IMG/VR virus record: IMGVR_UViG_3300035220_000638
Location: 1-24,595 of that record
DNA length: 24,595 nucleotides
Direction: 5' to 3' (one strand)
Origin: a virus
The notes beneath the pieces are model-generated. The model ran no database searches. It was not told the origin of the DNA and was given only the letters and a program-made list of their open reading frames with translations. Below, piece by piece: positions 10,145 through 22,624 of the stretch. Numbering within the stretch: position 1 is the first letter of the stretch; every line of letters starts with the position of its first letter. The translations under genes and the position numbers were made by a program.

Positions 10145-10900
10145 ATGGCTAATATTCTGAACGAGGGACTATCTCGTACCCTCGGTATTGAATTTGAATT
10201 TAAGTTAAGGCTCCAGACTCTGCTTGCAGAGTTTAAGGATGATCCCCTTGTTCGATACGTAAACGGTGCATCTGGCACCGAGACTGCTCAATACACTGCA
10301 GCTACTGCTGCATTAACAAAATTTATCAAGTGTGGACCTTCCATGGGTTTTGAGGCTAAGCGTAACGCTTACGCCGTCCTAGAGGAAGTGGTCACGGCTC
10401 TTAAGAACTCTGGCAAAGTCCCAGCAGCTGACGACACGGCACTAACTTCCGAGCTAGTGAACGTTACCCGTTTTGTGGGTCTTGAAGGCGAAGAGGACTT
10501 CCACTTCATGGTGGCAGTGTTTAATCTTTGCGAGAAGGTCTCTGGAGTGGTTGGCGAAGTTGAGACTGAAGTCAACGAAGGAGTTGCCGCTACTGGCGGA
10601 ATCACAACTATCGTCCTACTCGACGGTGGATCTGGATACACAATGGACGGATCTGATGGCGACGAAGCGGCCTATAAGGTTCTTCTTGTTGGCACCGAAG
10701 ATACCGGAAACGGAACTGGAGGCAAGGCAACTGCAGTCCTCGAAGGTGGTATCATCACTGGAATCACTTCAGTTGATACAGCTGGTTCTGCATACTCTGT
10801 CGGCGACATCCTCGTTCTTGAGGTTGACACCGGAGCAAGTGGACAAGGATCGGGTACGCTCGATACCGAAGCACTCGTCGAAGTCACCGCTGTTTCCTGA
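10145..10900 (+). CDS. Probable abundant virion protein with GGSGY C-terminal domain
   Basis: I do not recognise the family of this 251-residue protein. Residues 1-~145 are helical (LLAEFKDDPLVRYV, then FHFMVAVFNLCEKVSGVVGEVETEV). Residues ~150-251 form a Gly/Thr/Val-rich acidic beta domain of two related units: GGSGYTMDGSDGDEAAYKV, then AGSAYSVGDILVLEVDTG. The same GGSGY signature occurs in the gene at 2065-4317. Codon use stands out: Arg is mostly CGT and Lys mostly AAG, with many C-ending codons, whereas neighbours prefer AGA/AGG. This points to high expression, as does the hairpin terminator that follows. A role as a decoration, tail or other abundant structural protein is inferred. A 164-residue frame on the same strand (10473-10967) runs through the terminator and is a shadow. 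Confidence 0.75.
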   Translation: MANILNEGLSRTLGIEFEFKLRLQTLLAEFKDDPLVRYVNGASGTETAQYTAATAALTKFIKCGPSMGFEAKRNAYAVLEEVVTALKNSGKVPAADDTALTSELVNVTRFVGLEGEEDFHFMVAVFNLCEKVSGVVGEVETEVNEGVAATGGITTIVLLDGGSGYTMDGSDGDEAAYKVLLVGTEDTGNGTGGKATAVLEGGIITGITSVDTAGSAYSVGDILVLEVDTGASGQGSGTLDTEALVEVTAVS

Positions 10901-10954: not shown

Positions 10955-11074
10955 AAAGTATCTATAGCATATCTGTTTACCTTGAGTAATTTATATAGAT
11001 GCCACGCTAGATTGGCATATAAGCCATTTAAATCTAAGTACGCCATTGTCTTTGAAGAGAGGCAGATTCAGTCA
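10955..11074 (+). promoter_or_regulatory. Leader region of the hub gene with hairpin
   Basis: This 120-base stretch separates the terminator from the preferred hub start. It contains ATGCCA and TGGCAT (10999-11004 and 11013-11018), which form a 6-bp stem. The second arm can instead pair through TGGC with GCCA at 11023-11026, so two exclusive folds are possible. No standard -35/-10 pair was found, although an AT-rich TTATATAG (10991-10998) could be part of a phage-specific promoter. The region is also an open extension of the hub frame from a TTG at 10982. Confidence 0.3.
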
Positions 11075-13924
11075 ATGCGCGTGAACTTAGTTGCCAATTT
11101 TTCGGACATCGTCAAAGCTGGCTCGCCCTCTTTAACCGGGCTATTTAACGAGTCGAGTAACTCCTGTGTAATAACACTCTCAGATCCCTATCTTGATGGT
11201 GTTGCTTGGACTTCTTTGAACGAGATTAATTCTTTGACCGGGCTAGGCACCTCTGCAAATCAAGATGCCGGGGCTGGGTTCTTAAAGAGGAAATGTAAGC
11301 CAGGAGAAAGCCCTGCTAATGGTTGTTTTCCTTACGCCTTAATAGATTCTCAAGGAAGCGAGTCTAACTTAGCAACAACTGAACGTTCTAAGCCCACACT
11401 AATATTAACTCTTTGGTATGTAATAGGCGGAGACAAGAATCAGGTCGTGGAGACCACATTTTATTTTGATCTAGTTGCAACAAATATAAAGCACGGGATT
11501 AGCGGAGAACCCACGGTAACGCTAAGCGGAAAGCACGCTTATGACGTTAAGTTTCAACAAAACCTTCAGCCTACTTTCTTTGACCAAGGAAAGAACTGGG
11601 TAGATGAGTTTAATGAGAAGCTGTTCTATGACGCCGAAGGATTTAAAGTAGAAGACGTATGTTCTGATTCCGCTGAAGAAGTGAAAATGGATAGGGTCTA
11701 CCGGGTGAACAATCTCACACCTGCAGAGATCCTAAATAAGTTTATGAGCACAAAGCCAGGCTCCCAAGTCTTATCCCTACCAACAAAAGAGTTTGCGAAT
11801 AAGATACAAATTTGTACCAAAGCCGATAACTTTTGCTATGGAAGCACAGTGTTTTATCTTGGTAAGGGTCTCTATGAGCAGTATAAGATAAATGTAGAAA
11901 TTCCAACTGCTGATGTACAAAGAAACTTAAAAGCAGCGCCTCCTAAGATCGAAGGTCCAAAAGGACCAGAGACAACATACAGCGTTTCTATCCCAGACCC
12001 AGAAACCACAGCAAATCAACTAAAAGAAGTTTCTGCGGACGCTTCCACGGCGTTTGCCCCTCAGTTTGTTAACGTAGAGGACTATTCTACTACTGATATT
12101 TGGAAAGGCTCCGGAAACAAAGAGACCTTTAAGATAGAGAAGCTGGAGAAAGTTGCAGCGTATGGTGATGCCAAAGGGCCCCTAGCCTATTACGGCGGGG
12201 AGGTACTAAATGTAAACAATGAAGAGAAGTCAGTTAGGATAAAAAGCAACTTCTATATACAGTATTGTGGCGCTGATGACAAATGTAACAGAGCAACCTT
12301 ATACCAGGAATATAAGAAACTAAGCAGTATATCAGTTAAAGAGACCGACAAACTAGCAGTGAATGCCTCTATAGGAGAGATAAAGTCAGGTGATCCACAA
12401 GAAGCATCTAAGACTAAGTTCTATGTTCAATTGAGCACAGGAGAAGAGGTGGTGATGGATCCTTCTTCGGTCCAGTCTATGATCTCAGCATACAAAGGAG
12501 ACTCCGACAAAGAAAACGAAGAGGAAGCACCTACAGACGGTAACGAAGATCTCGCTAAAAAAATTGTTGCAAGAGTGGGTTGGACAGGTAGCGTTGTGCC
12601 TGCCGGAGAGAACGGGACGCACCTTCACACTGAGTGGCAGCCTAACTCTAGGAGTATCTCTCGAGCCGACGTAGAGAAATACATAGAACTAGGAAGTAGC
12701 TACAGTGTAACAGGTAGTTATGGTGAAGATCGCGGAAATCGAAAACACGCAGGAATAGATTTTGGTGGTATGGAGCCCGGCACGCCAATATATCTAAAGG
12801 GCGGTGCTACTGCGGCTAATGCAGTTACAGTGTGCAAGAACGGGGATACAAAATGCTCGGGTGGATTTGGTAATAACCTACTCATAAATACGCCAGAGGG
12901 ACAAATGCTTCTAGCTCATTTACAGCCGGGATCTATTGATGAAGGCATTCCAGAGAGCAGCGGTGGGACAAGTGTAGCTACGGCCTCTAACTCAGGGAGT
13001 GTAAAGAATGGAAATCAGCAGAGCTCAAGTGACAAGAACTCAACAAAGATATCCACAAGTATAAAAGGTGTTCCGAAGGCTTTAAGAATACTCCCAGGTA
13101 GAACGATCTTGTCTTTCATCTCTGATTACGATAAGTGGATAGAGAATGGAAGGTCATCTGACATTGATCCTAACGTTTGGATACCTGAAAAATATAAGAG
13201 TTGGTACATTGGCAAAGTGGAGTATAACTGGGACAGGGGTGATCTTAGGGTTAAGATTGACGGATACCTGCCTTGGCAATTGCAAAATAAAGGCTTAGAA
13301 GCCGTTCCTAACTGGGTCACCCATAAGGAAAACAAAGGCTATTCGGATTACTACGATTATATAAGATCAGCTGGAGATCTATGTTATATTAACAAAAACA
13401 ATAAAGACTCTTGCTCTGAGTGTAGCAAAACTAGACAAAGTACTTCCGCGGATGGATCGGCGCCTGGAGAGATAAATAGCAATTTTGCTAAGGGCAAATT
13501 TACTTACACAGGCAGCAATCAACAATCTGTACAGAGCTTGATAAATGCTTCAGAGGCCGCAGGAGTAAAGTCTAACATAGGTCAAGCGGCTATTGTAGGT
13601 AATGCACAGAAAGAGAGCTTTGCAAATTTAGACCCTACAGCCGTAGGAGATGATGGAACTGCCTTAGGAGTTTTCCAGTGGAGAGCTGATAGACAGGATA
13701 ACCTAAGAGCTTTAGGAAATGCTCCGCTATCTAGAGAGCAGCAAATGAGGTGGTTTGTAAAAGAAATGCAGGACTATCCAGATTTAATTAATTACTTAAA
13801 TAGAAACGACATAACATTAGATCAAGCTGTAAGAGAGTTTGGCAGAGTCTATCTAAGGCCCGGCACTCCGGTCTATGAAGATAGACTTAGAAACGCTCAA
13901 AATATATTTAATAACATGAGATAA
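11075..13924 (+). CDS. Tail hub protein with permuted M23 peptidase and lysozyme domains
   Basis: This 949-residue protein combines tail-hub and murein-degrading parts. The N-terminal ~260 residues resemble the gpD/gp27 type of tail hub (weak similarity: TVTLSGKHAYDVKFQQ; TPAEILNKFM). Residues ~490-625 hold all the M23 zinc-endopeptidase motifs, but in permuted order: GTHLHTEW (His516, His518), then KHAGIDFGG (His558, Asp562), then LLAHLQP (His615). A middle beta domain follows (~670-735, ILPGRTILSF to YLPW). Residues ~810-945 match the phage tail lysozyme family (GNAQKES with likely catalytic Glu847, then GVFQWRADRQDNL). It would cut peptide and glycan bonds of peptidoglycan during DNA entry. 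I prefer the ATG at 11075. The same frame extends to a TTG at 10982, but those 31 codons look unlike a hub N-terminus. The next gene starts one base after its stop. Confidence 0.85.
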   Translation: MRVNLVANFSDIVKAGSPSLTGLFNESSNSCVITLSDPYLDGVAWTSLNEINSLTGLGTSANQDAGAGFLKRKCKPGESPANGCFPYALIDSQGSESNLATTERSKPTLILTLWYVIGGDKNQVVETTFYFDLVATNIKHGISGEPTVTLSGKHAYDVKFQQNLQPTFFDQGKNWVDEFNEKLFYDAEGFKVEDVCSDSAEEVKMDRVYRVNNLTPAEILNKFMSTKPGSQVLSLPTKEFANKIQICTKADNFCYGSTVFYLGKGLYEQYKINVEIPTADVQRNLKAAPPKIEGPKGPETTYSVSIPDPETTANQLKEVSADASTAFAPQFVNVEDYSTTDIWKGSGNKETFKIEKLEKVAAYGDAKGPLAYYGGEVLNVNNEEKSVRIKSNFYIQYCGADDKCNRATLYQEYKKLSSISVKETDKLAVNASIGEIKSGDPQEASKTKFYVQLSTGEEVVMDPSSVQSMISAYKGDSDKENEEEAPTDGNEDLAKKIVARVGWTGSVVPAGENGTHLHTEWQPNSRSISRADVEKYIELGSSYSVTGSYGEDRGNRKHAGIDFGGMEPGTPIYLKGGATAANAVTVCKNGDTKCSGGFGNNLLINTPEGQMLLAHLQPGSIDEGIPESSGGTSVATASNSGSVKNGNQQSSSDKNSTKISTSIKGVPKALRILPGRTILSFISDYDKWIENGRSSDIDPNVWIPEKYKSWYIGKVEYNWDRGDLRVKIDGYLPWQLQNKGLEAVPNWVTHKENKGYSDYYDYIRSAGDLCYINKNNKDSCSECSKTRQSTSADGSAPGEINSNFAKGKFTYTGSNQQSVQSLINASEAAGVKSNIGQAAIVGNAQKESFANLDPTAVGDDGTALGVFQWRADRQDNLRALGNAPLSREQQMRWFVKEMQDYPDLINYLNRNDITLDQAVREFGRVYLRPGTPVYEDRLRNAQNIFNNMR

Positions 13925-16299: not shown

Positions 16300-17883
16300 C
16301 TAAAGATAACGTACACCGCCCGCATTTCGCACGTTTCTCTTGTCACCTAGTAAGTTACTAAGCGAAGATGATTTCCTATAAGACGGGTCATAAGTTAACT
16401 TAGGCAAGGAAGATCTTATGCCGCCGGAGGTCATAGCGCCGCCCATTAGCTCATCTCTATATACAGTTATCCCATATACAAAAGCATCTACAAAGTCATC
16501 ATTTTTAATGAAAGGAAAAGACGTAAGTTCATTTAGCCTATCTTGAAGGTTAGGGATGTTTTCGTAGATGCTAACGCACCCATCTTCCACTAGAGGGGCA
16601 ACAGAGTTTGCTCTTAGTACTTTATCTTTAGACGGTACGAGTTCCTTGATCTGTATGGTGAGAGTAGACTTTAAAGTCTGGATTAGAGGGACTCCGCTAG
16701 CTCTACCTTCTATGTATACACATCTAATTTTCCATTGCTTAACAATCTTAGGTATAAGTTTTTGAAGATCTGGGAACTCCATCCTCTCCATAACTACGTG
16801 CAAGAGCCTTAGCTTCTTACCTTTATCCAAACCCCAGACGCAGATTGCTGTGAAGTCGTTCATACTCTCAGCCTTATAAGCCGTGTCTATGGTGGCATAG
16901 ATATAAGAATACTTTACTTGCTTGTCGTAGATCTCCAGCCAATGCTCTTTAAATATCGCGCCTGCATCGCCAGCGGGTTGCCCTTGGTACAATGAGTTAA
17001 AGTCCCTCTCGCCGATTGACTTTTTGATTGCCTGAAGATTCTCTATAGGGAAAAACTCAGGCCAATGAGACTCACCTAGTTCCCTACCTAACGAGTCGTT
17101 TTCTTCATCGACGCAGATTGCCGGAACATTAAGCTCTTTCCAGTTGGCCCTATCTGCACTAAGTAACCTGCCAATCACATCATCGCAATGAAACCTCGTG
17201 CCCATAGAGATAATGGCATGGTTGGGTAGACCACGAGTCAAGAACTGAGCCTGAACCCAGCTAAATGTACTCTCCATAACAGTTAACGAGTTACCATCTG
17301 CCAGAAGGTCATCAAGGAGCCCAACACCTGGTAGGTCCTGATCATCAATAACCCCGTATCCAAATCCGGTAACACTAGATCCAGCAGAAGCGACCTTAAT
17401 TAGCCCACCGTTCTCTGTCCTCAAAGCGGTGAGGTTACATTTCTCCTTGTTGATCTCGCACTCTGGAAATATCCAAGAGAACTTCTCAGAAGTTATGTAA
17501 TCCATCACTGCTCTAGAGTTTTCTGTAGACAGACCTAAGGCATATGAGCTCATGATAAACTGGGCAGTAGGGCTTCTTCCCATCTGCCATGCCGGAAAGA
17601 TCCGGCTAATAAGCATAGATTTGCCTGTCCTTGGAGGTAAGGAGATTGCGCTATACTTGTAGTCTTTATTACCGTCTCCGATGTTCTGTAGATAAGAGCA
17701 TATTAGCTCGTGAACGGGATAAGATTTAAATTGAAGATCTGTGATCACCTTAGCAAAAGTAATGAAGTCTGTCCTGCACTTCAGTCTTAAAAGCTCTTCT
17801 TTGTCCGTTGCTGACAAGGAAGAACCTCTCTTTTGCATATCAGCTACAATCGCCCTCTCCTCTTCTAGCTCTTTCTTGTTCAT
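16300..17883 (-). CDS. terL: Terminase large subunit
   Basis: This 527-residue protein is the DNA-packaging motor and nuclease. The N-terminal ATPase has Walker A PPRTGKS (83-89, Lys88), a Walker-B-like segment GVIDDQD (177-183) and the conserved GTRFHCDD block (228-235). The C-terminal RuvC-like nuclease has Asp333 (ATIDTAYK), Glu392 (YIEGRASG) and the Asp463/Asp466 pair (DDFVDAFVYG). Overall it looks like the TIGR01630/Terminase_6C type rather than T4 gp17, which is a little unexpected for a T4-like neighbourhood. The ATG at 17883 overlaps the end of the spike gene by 44 bases. An alternative ATG at 17838 (residue 16) lies one base after that gene's TGA and avoids the overlap; neither has a clear ribosome binding site. 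No small terminase subunit is recognisable in the window. Confidence 0.93.
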   Translation of the reverse strand: MNKKELEEERAIVADMQKRGSSLSATDKEELLRLKCRTDFITFAKVITDLQFKSYPVHELICSYLQNIGDGNKDYKYSAISLPPRTGKSMLISRIFPAWQMGRSPTAQFIMSSYALGLSTENSRAVMDYITSEKFSWIFPECEINKEKCNLTALRTENGGLIKVASAGSSVTGFGYGVIDDQDLPGVGLLDDLLADGNSLTVMESTFSWVQAQFLTRGLPNHAIISMGTRFHCDDVIGRLLSADRANWKELNVPAICVDEENDSLGRELGESHWPEFFPIENLQAIKKSIGERDFNSLYQGQPAGDAGAIFKEHWLEIYDKQVKYSYIYATIDTAYKAESMNDFTAICVWGLDKGKKLRLLHVVMERMEFPDLQKLIPKIVKQWKIRCVYIEGRASGVPLIQTLKSTLTIQIKELVPSKDKVLRANSVAPLVEDGCVSIYENIPNLQDRLNELTSFPFIKNDDFVDAFVYGITVYRDELMGGAMTSGGIRSSLPKLTYDPSYRKSSSLSNLLGDKRNVRNAGGVRYL

Positions 17884-20704
17884 TAGATATTTGTTTTAGT
17901 AGTGTATCGAAGTCACCTGAGTTTAACTGATCAGCAGATAAAGATCTAATATTAGAAGAATTAGAAAGACTAAAGTCTTTGTAGCTGTAGTTTAACGTAT
18001 CTTCCTTAGGTTGGCTTGTAGATAACTTAGCAGATAAAGAATCTTTTAAGACTTTAGACTCTGTATTTATAGTTTTTAAGTCTTGGAACGGAGCGGCCAG
18101 CTCCGGGTCTAGTGTTGCTAGAGTGTTCAGGCCCTCGAGTATGTTCTTAATGAGGTTGATAAGAGCTCTTGCCTTGGATTTAGAAAAATAACCAGGTATC
18201 GAAGCCGGGTTTGCCATCGTTGCTATGAGTGCGGGTGTAGGAGCTACATTAGCAGACCCACCCTTCTTAACAGAGTTAAGTTGTTTTATCATTAGATAAA
18301 GGTCTTTAATTGCCAAAGATTGCTCTATGTCATCAGCTGACATCTTACCAAGTAACCCTCCGTCCTTATCGGCAATTATATTATTCATGAAGTCACTACT
18401 TCCAAGCAGGTTAAGTCTTTGGATTAACTCCATGATACTCATGTTGTTATCGGCCATTTTAAAAGTCTTCTCAATGGCTTCAAACGTGTACTGCATTTCA
18501 AGTTTAAGGTCGTCGTCCTCAGCACCACCTTGAATTGCTTGTTCAAAGCTACTAGCCATCTCTCCAACCCTAGGAATAGATTTGATAACACTCGTGAAGT
18601 CAAATATATTAGAAGGGATTAGCTCTTTGCCGATACCTGTAAAACTAAGACCTAGGCCTTTTGCAAGGCAAGTGTTATTATTATTTAAGATATTACCGCC
18701 ATAAACATTTGAGTTTTTAATTGTTAGGTTACCAGCGGGATCTAATAGCCTGTTTCCATCACTATCTACACCGTGATCTACTTTTCTACAAACTGGCTCA
18801 CATGGACAACTAGGCCCGCCGCCTCCACCGAACAACCCACCCAAAGCGCCAAATGCACCCCCACCACCTAATATAGAAGACAGCGGATTGTTGCCTCCTA
18901 ACAGAGCTGTTACTCCTGATATTGCAAGGCCAGCTCCAGGAAACGCGAGGTTTAAAGGACCTCCTAGTCCAGCAGCTCCTAGTAAAGACGAGGCACTAAG
19001 AGGAAGCCCTCCGCCTAGGAAATTCAAAGAATCAAAGCCGGCAAAGTCTTGAAAGATGCCGGCAACTGGGCCAAAATTGCCGCCAAGTAGCTGATCGGTT
19101 AAAGCTCCAACATTAACTCCACCGAAGTCAAGGCCTTCCGCGATTCCGGCAACGGAGTTAATAAGCCCCCCGCCAGCTCCGCCTCCTAATATGGAAGATA
19201 GCATCTGAGGGGCGTTTGCTAAATCTAGTCCTCCTATAGCTTGACTAAATATCTCAGATGCAGGTCCGGTTACTTGATCCAGTCCGTACTGCACAGCCGC
19301 GTCTAAAGCTCCTGCCCCACCTCCAGCTAATAGCGACGTGAATTGACCTACGTCTGCAGAAGATAAACCTCCTAGCCCGTTTGTTAGAACTTCTGATCCT
19401 GCTGCTGATAGAAGCGCGGCGGGATCTACAGACCCACTTTTTAAAATAGCTTCTGCATTTTGCCCTAAAGAAGCCAATAGGTTACCAGAATTAGAGATAT
19501 CTCCTAGAGCTCCTGTAAGCTGGGGGATGCTTATACCTTGTTCTCCAAGTATCTTACTCCCAGTCGCCATTGCCAGGTCTAGACCAGCGTTACCGCTCAA
19601 GAGGGACTTAATTTCATCTCCGTACCCCGCACCGATCGTTCCAGCAGCTATACCACCAGCAAAATTTAAGGCGGACGAAGTAAGACCTGAAGCTGCTAGG
19701 GGATTGGATGCGGCAGAAGCGAGTTGTGTAGCTAGCCCTGCGTTAGAAGTTACGTTACCTATTAGTTGTGATTTTGAGATCGGAGCTGGTTTATCAGCAA
19801 ATTTTAATACAGTCCTTGTACCATATTTTATCCACTTCATATCTCCGTCGAAGCGAACGCAAATACTTAATTCAGAGTTATTACCGTCGTCTATAACCGC
19901 GAGTTGGCCGTGGATCTTCTCTGTGCATTTAGGAAACGTAGTTTTAAAATACGTAGGTACCGCAGACGGGGGAACCCAGGCCCACTCTTTATTCTCGTCC
20001 TTGCGACAGACTAACATAGTCTGTCTAAAATCTCTATCTTCGGAAAAAGTGATTAGCTCACCTTCTAGCTCCTCAGAGCATTTCTTTAAAGGCTTTGGAT
20101 CTCCTTTTACGTTTGACTGCTCTAACTGCTTAGGGTCCGTGGATTTCTCTACAACGAGGCCCCTAGTTAAATTCTTCCACTCCCATACATCGCCATCTGG
20201 GTTGGTCTGACGGTTATTTCTTCTCACACAGATCTTAAGATCCTGAGACATGTTGTCAGAGAAGAGATACACCCTACCTTCGTTATCCTTGTCGCATTGT
20301 GCTCCAGGATCTTCTGAGTTTGCAAGGTCTGCCTTATCAAGTTTTGGTATGACAACAGGAGCTGAGTTTAATATGTACTCAGAGTTAAGATCGTTGTACA
20401 GTCCTAAGACTACAGCATCGTCCGCATTACCAGATACAGCGCCAATGAGGCACTTAGATCCTAGGTATTGAGTGCTGATCCTACCAGAACTATTATTTAG
20501 TACGGGAAGCCAGTCAGACTTAGCACTAGTGCTATTCTCGTCAAACAGTACTCTCACCCTTGATAGGTTTTCTGGATCATCAACGCTGTCTATCTTGGCG
20601 GGTTGGATGAAAAACTCAGCAGCACCGCCAGCGATTTTTTCCCCTAAAATTTTAAGTCGCTTATCTTGATTTGCAAGTGCTTCAACAAAAGAAGAATTCT
20701 GCAT
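17840..20704 (-). CDS. Tail spike/hub protein with gp5/gpV-like OB fold and Gly/Ala-rich core
   Basis: This 954-residue protein begins with an OB-fold like that of T4 gp5, P2 gpV and VgrG (about residues 30-105: PAKIDSVDDPENLSRVRVLF, then SKCLIG and VVLGLYND), which trimerises at the base of the membrane-piercing spike. Three related modules follow at ~137-176, 209-244 and 260-294, each of the form C...G-x-L...L-x-I-C-V-R...W-x-W (ICVRRN, LVCRKD, ICVRFD). Residues ~318-630 are a very long Gly/Ala/Leu/Ser-rich segment. It ends at CPCEPVCR (633-640) with DSDGN (647-651), a probable metal or disulfide knot. The C-terminal ~280 residues are helical and acidic. No lysozyme domain is present; that activity sits in the hub gene at 11075. 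It starts three bases after the LamG fibre gene stop, suggesting coupled translation. Confidence 0.8.
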   Translation of the reverse strand: MQNSSFVEALANQDKRLKILGEKIAGGAAEFFIQPAKIDSVDDPENLSRVRVLFDENSTSAKSDWLPVLNNSSGRISTQYLGSKCLIGAVSGNADDAVVLGLYNDLNSEYILNSAPVVIPKLDKADLANSEDPGAQCDKDNEGRVYLFSDNMSQDLKICVRRNNRQTNPDGDVWEWKNLTRGLVVEKSTDPKQLEQSNVKGDPKPLKKCSEELEGELITFSEDRDFRQTMLVCRKDENKEWAWVPPSAVPTYFKTTFPKCTEKIHGQLAVIDDGNNSELSICVRFDGDMKWIKYGTRTVLKFADKPAPISKSQLIGNVTSNAGLATQLASAASNPLAASGLTSSALNFAGGIAAGTIGAGYGDEIKSLLSGNAGLDLAMATGSKILGEQGISIPQLTGALGDISNSGNLLASLGQNAEAILKSGSVDPAALLSAAGSEVLTNGLGGLSSADVGQFTSLLAGGGAGALDAAVQYGLDQVTGPASEIFSQAIGGLDLANAPQMLSSILGGGAGGGLINSVAGIAEGLDFGGVNVGALTDQLLGGNFGPVAGIFQDFAGFDSLNFLGGGLPLSASSLLGAAGLGGPLNLAFPGAGLAISGVTALLGGNNPLSSILGGGGAFGALGGLFGGGGGPSCPCEPVCRKVDHGVDSDGNRLLDPAGNLTIKNSNVYGGNILNNNNTCLAKGLGLSFTGIGKELIPSNIFDFTSVIKSIPRVGEMASSFEQAIQGGAEDDDLKLEMQYTFEAIEKTFKMADNNMSIMELIQRLNLLGSSDFMNNIIADKDGGLLGKMSADDIEQSLAIKDLYLMIKQLNSVKKGGSANVAPTPALIATMANPASIPGYFSKSKARALINLIKNILEGLNTLATLDPELAAPFQDLKTINTESKVLKDSLSAKLSTSQPKEDTLNYSYKDFSLSNSSNIRSLSADQLNSGDFDTLLKQISNEQERARRGEGDCS

Positions 20705-20707
20705 GGA

Positions 20708-22624
20708 TTAAACGTGGTTAATGATCTGAATGCCAATGGCTCCCGAATCTATGGCGTTATCGTTAGCTTGGTTCTTTACTATTATATCTACGTGTCCTGC
20801 GGATCTAGCAATTCGGATGTAGGACGACGCACTGCTGCTATGGTCCATGCCCTGAGCCATAACAAAGTAATCATCGCTGTTGCTATAAGCATTCGCAAAA
20901 GTTAGTCTGTATGTACCGTTGGTCGGCCGAGTTACAGTCAAACCAGAAGAACCCTTCCATGCAAAGGAAGCTCCTAATGTGATCTCTCCTTTCTTGTCAG
21001 CTGGTGGAGGTACTATCTGTGTGGTTGATCCAGATACAGGTAGTTGGGTGGCTGCTGGAATAAAAGTACTATTGTAGCGAGCGGTCTTAGAGATCCTCAG
21101 ATCATCTATTATACCATCAAAGTCTTCTCCGTAGTACTCTTGATATCCTAAAGCAAACTCGTCTGGATTAAGTATATTGTTATCTGTTAAAACAGAACCG
21201 TAGTTCTCACCATCTAGATACAACGTCATATCCCCCGTTAGACCATCTTTAACATAAGCTATATGATGCCAAGATCCTATGTAAGTGGAGGCGGTTAAAG
21301 TAACGATATCCGTGCCATCTTGGGTATTGTGATTACTATTGTTGCCATTAAACCAAGAGAAGGTTATGTTGGAGGTGCTTGATGGTTTGCGAATTTTTAA
21401 TCCCCAGTTCTTTGATGCTGTACTCGAGTTCCCGCCAAAGATACAATCTGGACTATTAAACCCGTTAATATCATCTATATATACCCAAGCTTCCATCGTC
21501 CAGGCGCTTACAAAATCATATTTTGTTGTATCTGTTACGTCCCATTCTATATAAGCGTCGTCTAGCCTTAGAGCTTTTACACCTACTTTAACAGGAGAGC
21601 CGGTGAGCAGAGTGTCTGTAGCGCTACTTCTGTAAGGTGTTGCATTATATTTAATGTCGTCAAAGCTTGTGTCAAAAGTCGCTCGGATCAGCACACTGTC
21701 CCAAAGAGTATCCGCAGGGATCTCTCCAGCCTCATTTATTAAGAAGAAAGGTCGCCAGGCTGTACCATCATAGAAATGTGGGGCGTTGCCTATGACTTTT
21801 ATCTCTCTTGTGCTTCCTGATGATGGCGTAGTAGCATTATTTGATAGTCTAAGAGTACTACTTTTTACGTCGCCCGTGATATTAATCGTGCCAGTTCCTT
21901 CTATTGTCTTATTACTAAGGTCTAGATCGCCTCCGAGTTCAGGAGTGAGGTCAAGCTTAATTTCAACACCTGAGGGTAAAGACGATAAGTCCGGTGGAGT
22001 GTAAGTAAACACCCCATTAGTATCATCATAAGATAGGCTAGGAGACGAAGAAGCATCATTCGTGCTTACGGAAAAACTAGCAAGGCCTATGCTAGCGGCG
22101 ATTGTTTGATTTTTCCATTTTTGATCATCGCTATCGTACCTGAGTACCTGATTGCCAGTGGGACCACTGATCTCTACATCACCTACATCATTTAATCCGT
22201 TGATTGTAGTGCCCTGTGATTCGGCCGCAGCAACCCATGAGTTACCGTTCCATTTCAGTATGTTGCCTGCTGTGACTGTTGAAGTATCTACATCGTTTAA
22301 AAGGTCAATACTCTGAGCTGAGATAGATTGCAGATATCCTTGTGCTGCATGATTACCCCACCCATAAGCGGCGTCCCACTGCTCTGTGTTTGTAGAGGTT
22401 ATACCACCAGCCACCGACGCAATAAACACTGGATCTTCTTCAACAAAATCTGTATCAATTTCTTGTTGTATCGTAGCCTTAAATACGGAGTAAGATACTT
22501 TCTTAGTCTCTCCAGAAGTATTAAAAGAGGTGTCGCTAATATCCACGACTGGGATTAAATCGCCGTCTGAAATCCCGCCTAAAGTAGGGAGCTCTGAAAT
22601 TTTCTTGGGTATAGGATTAGTCAT
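20708..22624 (-). CDS. Tail fibre protein with LamG (concanavalin-A-like) domain
   Basis: This 638-residue protein is a modular fibre. Residues 6-50 (KISELPTLGGISDGDLIPV) match a common N-terminal fibre segment. Fibre motifs follow: WDAAYGWGNHAAQGYL (83-98) and two repeats of the form L-N-D-V...G-x-x-L-x-W/Y...W (about 108-131 and 143-171). Residues ~308-522 form a LamG/concanavalin-A-like glycan-binding domain, with WTMEAWVYID, SWHHIAYVKDG, MTLYLDG and FDGIIDDLRIS in the expected order. The last ~95 residues are a beta-rich tip (GTYRLTFANAYSNSDDYFV) of the type that ends many fibres. It probably recognises surface polysaccharide. Its ATG is two bases after the stop of the baseplate gene, and the OB-fold gene follows three bases after its own stop. 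Confidence 0.85.
   Translation of the reverse strand: MTNPIPKKISELPTLGGISDGDLIPVVDISDTSFNTSGETKKVSYSVFKATIQQEIDTDFVEEDPVFIASVAGGITSTNTEQWDAAYGWGNHAAQGYLQSISAQSIDLLNDVDTSTVTAGNILKWNGNSWVAAAESQGTTINGLNDVGDVEISGPTGNQVLRYDSDDQKWKNQTIAASIGLASFSVSTNDASSSPSLSYDDTNGVFTYTPPDLSSLPSGVEIKLDLTPELGGDLDLSNKTIEGTGTINITGDVKSSTLRLSNNATTPSSGSTREIKVIGNAPHFYDGTAWRPFFLINEAGEIPADTLWDSVLIRATFDTSFDDIKYNATPYRSSATDTLLTGSPVKVGVKALRLDDAYIEWDVTDTTKYDFVSAWTMEAWVYIDDINGFNSPDCIFGGNSSTASKNWGLKIRKPSSTSNITFSWFNGNNSNHNTQDGTDIVTLTASTYIGSWHHIAYVKDGLTGDMTLYLDGENYGSVLTDNNILNPDEFALGYQEYYGEDFDGIIDDLRISKTARYNSTFIPAATQLPVSGSTTQIVPPPADKKGEITLGASFAWKGSSGLTVTRPTNGTYRLTFANAYSNSDDYFVMAQGMDHSSSASSYIRIARSAGHVDIIVKNQANDNAIDSGAIGIQIINHV

Follow-up and report, generated by a model that had tools for sequence, protein, structure and literature searches.

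The locus examined here raises the question of whether the active-site motifs of an M23 zinc peptidase, encoded in swapped order within a single phage gene, belong to one intact but circularly permuted domain. The window, i.e. the whole stretch of 24,595 nucleotides analysed (IMG/VR virus record IMGVR_UViG_3300035220_000638, positions 1 to 24,595), derives from an S-TIM5-like cyanophage, and the ORF concerned (10982-13924, plus strand) encodes, from a TTG start, a 980-residue S-TIM5-type virion structural protein. In tblastn searches, matches over 100% of the ORF length were obtained with S-TIM54 (40.8%) and with S-TIM66, S-TIM61 and S-TIM5 (33%), and close relatives are annotated as 'virion structural protein'. 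The gene order around the ORF is similar to that in these four phages.

The N-terminal third of the protein (residues 1-360), which is 97% identical between the window and the relative L002, matched no known family in PHROG or PDB profile searches; the identification of the protein as a tail hub is plausible. At the opposite end, the lysozyme domain matched PF18013 with an E-value of 3.3e-16 (60.2 bits, curated cut-off 28.2) and the lysozyme of phi29 gp13 (3csr) with an E-value of 1.9e-12. Just upstream of the ORF, positions 10145-10900 (plus strand) encode a 251-residue protein weakly similar to baseplate wedge/hub PHROGs. Elsewhere in the window lies a gene for a protein with a Phage_base_V OB-domain (spike-type; 17840-20704, minus strand), which, together with a gene for a Laminin_G_3 protein (20708-22624, minus strand), is adjacent to the terminase; these two are baseplate or adhesin genes. 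The features of the 980-residue protein are collected in Table 1.

Table 1. Coordinates of protein features in the window and of cyanopodovirus proteins (the latter given by contig).
Feature	Residues	Nucleotides	Strand	Remarks
N-terminal region	1-360	10982-12061	+	Conserved scaffold, suspected tail hub
Domain A	372-504	12095-12493	+	M23/LytM-like, canonical order, without catalytic motifs
A-B linker, flexible	506-526	12497-12559	+	pLDDT < 50 (model residues 134-154)
Domain B	527-653	12560-12940	+	Circularly permuted M23 peptidase (very probable)
Canonical C-half, now first: GWTG..GTHLHTEW		12578-12637	+	H547 and H549; profile 5-36 = 3slu 306-337
Canonical N-half start, now second: GSYG..HAGIDF		12713-12763	+	H589 and D593; profile 56-122 = 3slu 228-300
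Canonical N-half end: LLAHL		12908-12922	+	H646, invariant
Phage tail lysozyme domain, C-terminal	868-979	13583-13918	+	PF18013
Cyanopodovirus virion proteins (P60 gp33 and relatives) ending in a permuted M23-like domain		L096:22777-25776, L097:189-3182, L098:882-3845, L155-L234

The canonical M23 order of HxxxD, a single His and then HxH is not followed in domain B, which carries a permuted variant: HxH (H547/H549) comes first, followed by HxGxD (H589/D593) and finally xHL (H646). All of the motifs that the sequence-only reading had described in swapped order at this place were recovered in one uninterrupted ORF, with GTHLHTEW, KHAGIDFGG and LLAHLQP starting at nucleotides 12620, 12746 and 12908, respectively. 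Whilst their positions were correct, the residue numbers first assigned to them (516/518, 558/562 and 615) are 31 too low, consistent with counting from an internal ATG and not from the TTG start, which lies upstream of it and is conserved. No second HxH or HxGxD of this kind was found in the frame of the ORF across the window and, as already noted in that reading, no HxH follows H646.

A domain profile of 130 columns was built from 47 permuted B domains and compared with solved M23 chains. E-values as low as 4e-17 were obtained, and most chains were matched twice in inverted order, amounting to sequence homology over the M23 core in two stretches per chain (profile columns 5-36 and 56-122). 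In the alignments read these pieces abut, columns 56-122 corresponding to residues 228-300 of 3slu and columns 5-36 to residues 306-337. The Pfam model PF01551 aligned to residues 588-672 of the window protein over model positions 2-76 of 96, scoring 22.1 bits against a curated cut-off of 28.7, and since this match stops at position 76 the C-half is absent from its usual place. The same model matched all 47 B domains, weakly or well (40.9 bits for L022).

The junction between two consecutive copies of a canonical domain should be bridged by an alignment to a permuted profile, hence each of 46 bacterial canonical M23 domains was doubled, with a shuffled second copy serving as the control. With doubling, the median number of the 130 columns aligned collinearly rose from 28 to 112 and the best single alignment from 30.5 to 47.1 bits; a gain of more than 5 bits was observed for 33 of the 46 domains, and for none of 46 in the control. 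Among 56 M23 loci of bacterial genomes, picked by a pattern that covered the HxH half only and gave few candidates, 46 gave a two-piece match in the canonical arrangement and none gave a permuted one; permuted M23 domains may nonetheless occur in bacteria. Matches to Lactococcus, Gordonia and Listeria phages (tblastn, E 0.05-1) were considered as distant permuted kin and rejected, their sequences being canonical.

The permuted order was present in all 51 relatives that have the region, including the isolates S-TIM5, S-TIM54, S-TIM61 and S-TIM66. This order is conserved and marks a family rather than an accident, which the sequence-only reading had put forward as a matter for a wider search; homologues in normal order, which it had named as the contrary case, were not found among the 51 relatives of the protein. 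A chance match is excluded by profile E-values of approximately 1e-17, by the two inverted pieces against solved M23 chains and by an order kept in 51 of 51 relatives. The two pieces could also be imagined as remnants of two M23 domains, left by a decayed tandem array, or as the product of a rearrangement in assembly, and in either case not as parts of one fold, and the second, site-less M23 domain upstream does make a tandem ancestry plausible. However, the two halves, matched to canonical chains, meet precisely at the boundary, they form one collinear alignment against doubled canonical domains, and they lie in frame in all 51 relatives, which come from numerous contigs and include four isolates; the remnant explanation, to which we attach next to no probability, is in practice refuted. 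As judged by sequence comparison, domain B is permuted, and its fold is very probably that of the M23 zinc endopeptidases (LytM/lysostaphin) in a truly circularly permuted form, serving alongside other wall-cutting modules in a tail-type virion protein.

Structure prediction, proposed in the sequence-only reading as a check, was conducted with AlphaFold2. Domain B alone folded compactly (pLDDT 87.9, pTM 0.85) and was separate from domain A in a joint A and B model; it is thus confidently predicted to be an independent domain. Sequential structure alignment placed residues 43-138 of the B model on residues 201-289 of the Vibrio cholerae zinc peptidase 2gu1 (81 residues, 2.7 Å, Z 4.6), recovering the N-half alone, and the sequence profile placed the other half at 2gu1 293-355, immediately after. 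The fold is therefore a predicted one, with its N-half superposed on 2gu1. Profile and superposition agree on where the new termini lie: they are flanked by the xHL strand on one side and by the GxxIGxVGxTG strand of the HxH half on the other, as had been proposed from the motifs. Structure matches ranked below 2gu1 (mostly RRM, Z 3 or less) were discarded as a common arrangement. No whole-domain match of B was found in the PDB, Foldseek returning nothing at E < 0.001, as is expected for a permutant; this absence is no evidence for a new fold. The BFVD models of S-TIM5 and P60 matched the whole of domain B (TMq 0.64 and 0.59, respectively).

Phage hub proteins are usually trimers, and the sequence order would be compatible with strand swapping, whereby, in an oligomeric hub, each HxGxD half would be completed by an HxH strand from a neighbouring chain. 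Such inter-subunit complementation is very improbable, however, given that AlphaFold2 folds a single B chain as one compact domain at the above pTM of 0.85, that the spacer between the halves is short in all members, and that the permuted unit recurs in unrelated podovirus proteins.

Domain A aligned weakly (53%) with six phage M23 domains in hhalign comparisons, and its assignment to the M23 type follows from a profile match to SpoIIQ (E 0.0027) together with structural matches of its AlphaFold2 model (residues 1-133) to DipM 7qrl (Z 9.9, 102 aligned residues, 3.5 Å), SpoIIQ 3tuf (Z 9.3) and ShyA. Neither HxH nor HxGxD was found in this domain, which directly precedes the permuted domain B and is conserved in the relatives aligned. 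Its presence fits, without proving, a tandem M23 ancestry, in which M23 copies lying in tandem may have lost their outer halves and thereby given rise to the permutation. In 14 of the 51 relatives, an insert of approximately 200 residues at the A-B linker (for instance L022:4260-5000 and L039:7383-8096, with 12 others) carries AGHAD/PGHGD, EIHND and ILEVG motifs; having given one marginal match to Amidase_3 (E 0.081), it is tentatively regarded as amidase-like.

Identities were compared over five regions of the protein, namely N, A, B, C (C-linker) and lysozyme. In that order, the window and L002 were 97, 97, 42, 100 and 100% identical, S-TIM66 and S-TIM5 99, 100, 45, 100 and 100%, and L050 and L082 99, 98, 53, 99 and 98%, with sharp nucleotide borders at B, where identity fell, for example, from 98-100% to 37-60% and then returned. 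Across 990 pairs the identities of N, A and C correlated at 0.93-0.95, and that of B with these regions at just 0.46-0.49. The lysozyme was swapped separately, with L022 and L053 being 97-98% identical except for a lysozyme identity of 57%; different C-terminal lysozymes on nearly identical scaffolds were seen in the pairs L022/L053, L036/L038 and L060/L065. The permuted M23 domain and the lysozyme are thus swapped as cassettes between related phages. Recombination between these phages would exchange the hydrolase modules and leave the scaffold constant, and it is presumably host wall chemistry, or else the avoidance of inhibitors, that selects the swapped modules. Cassette exchange offers a testable link from tail lysins to cyanophage host range, for which a cultured pair is available in S-TIM5 and S-TIM66, the main difference between their two proteins being domain B.

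A fold search linked domain B to gp33 of Synechococcus phage P60. In a search of three proteins, the C-terminal domains from P60, S-CBP1 and DSL-LC07 were collinear with the permuted profile (i-Evalues 8e-8 to 2e-13), and 79 IMG/VR virion ORFs likewise matched it. Amongst those of the 79 with a readable motif, HLD replaces HxH, and the place of the second motif is taken by GSHGID in most and otherwise by GSHGVD, indicating that the podovirus zinc site is degenerate. In a tree all permuted sequences fell on one side of a branch separating them from canonical ones (SH-aLRT 95); this tree, inferred from a small alignment of 97 columns made with a profile built from permuted proteins, is suggestive of, and consistent with, one origin. 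Opinion is evenly poised on the broader proposal that a single permutation founded a cyanophage-specific family in two unrelated virion proteins, these being tail proteins of long-tailed phages with an intact site and internal proteins of podoviruses with a degenerate one. Under the same proposal, the intact-site form would act as a wall-cutting cassette that is matched to the host and can be exchanged on an unchanging scaffold without the lysozyme being swapped along with it.

In M23 peptidases zinc is coordinated by His and Asp from the Hx3D motif together with the second histidine of HxH, whilst the first HxH histidine and the His outside both motifs act on water (PMC9662197). With all five residues present, domain B of the window has a complete site, as the sequence-only reading had held, and by homology H549, H589 and D593 would be expected to meet at one zinc. 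The five residues were likewise present in 45 of the 51 relatives. H547, D593 and H646 were invariant in all 51, whereas H549 was His in 47 and Asp in four, and H589 was His in 49 and Tyr in two, leaving six relatives with a changed ligand (four HLD, two YxGxD), such that some of the relatives may not depend on the activity. HLD stands in place of HxH in an otherwise intact permuted domain in L002:3507-6443, L003:877-3798, L045 and L049, and YPGID in place of HxGxD in the permuted domain of L039 and L082.

The six altered relatives would suit an explanation in which B retains the permuted M23 fold but is no longer an enzyme, instead binding peptidoglycan or shaping the virion protein and leaving the cutting to the lysozyme. 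So would the neighbouring domain A, an M23 domain without catalytic motifs, and the podovirus lineage within the 79 virion ORFs, with its degenerate site of HLD and GSHGID. We nonetheless consider this explanation unlikely, as five catalytic residues kept in 45 of 51 relatives, and three kept in all, are not expected of a drifting non-enzyme when most B domains are only 26-47% identical to that of the window.

For domain B as a permuted peptidase, the likely role is the local cutting of peptidoglycan at DNA entry, in line with what virion-associated M23 proteins, phi29 gp13 among them, are known to do (PMC9662197). Upon adsorption the 980-residue protein, in what we infer to be a tail-tip position, would be brought to the cyanobacterial peptidoglycan, where B would cleave bonds in the stem peptide or the cross-link, H589, D593 and H549 binding the zinc and H547 and H646 activating the water. 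Cutting of the glycan would fall to the lysozyme, in some relatives assisted by the amidase-like module, and the tail would deliver DNA through the resulting local hole in the wall.

A precedent for circular permutation exists in the NlpC/P60 superfamily, which includes cell-wall peptidases, in its LRAT and YaeF types (PMC6403190), though this is a cysteine peptidase fold unrelated to M23. This remark alone was relevant in the literature searched, which was covered incompletely and yielded no description of a permuted M23 domain; the 2022 M23 review 'One fold, many functions' contains no word beginning 'permut' (PMC9662197). Among virion proteins, the tail-tip proteins phi29 gp13 and phage Gp16 (9m7n) pair a PF18013-type lysozyme with an M23 domain, as here, but their M23 domain is canonical and C-terminal to the lysozyme, whereas the permuted domain precedes it. 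Lactococcal tail-associated lysins, such as ORF53 of proPhi1, similarly carry an M23 module in a tail protein, but in canonical order (HNAMD, YAHQ, GPHLHF). The baseplate hub of cyanophage A-1(L) (8kea) has an M23-like region near its C-terminus, of which residues 781-893 match the canonical-order domain A (Z 5.3), and no permutation was seen in 8kea. Domain A also resembles the fold of the LytM factors SpoIIQ, DipM and EnvC, which are cellular and not virion parts; like domain A, SpoIIQ and EnvC are without a complete catalytic site.

The M23 peptidases themselves (PF01551, MEROPS M23), which rank with the best-studied enzymes of the cell wall and include LytM, lysostaphin, ShyA and NMB0315 (3slu), share HxxxD, HxH, the third His and their flanks with domain B, each half of which aligns significantly to the corresponding canonical half. 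In domain B these halves are inverted, with new termini between the xHL and GxxIGxVGxTG strands, and the Pfam match is partial; because the order is permuted, such domains are missed or cut short by Pfam and by sequential structure searches. As a natural permutant conserved in 51 phage proteins, domain B would indicate that the M23 fold tolerates new termini exactly between its zinc-ligand halves.
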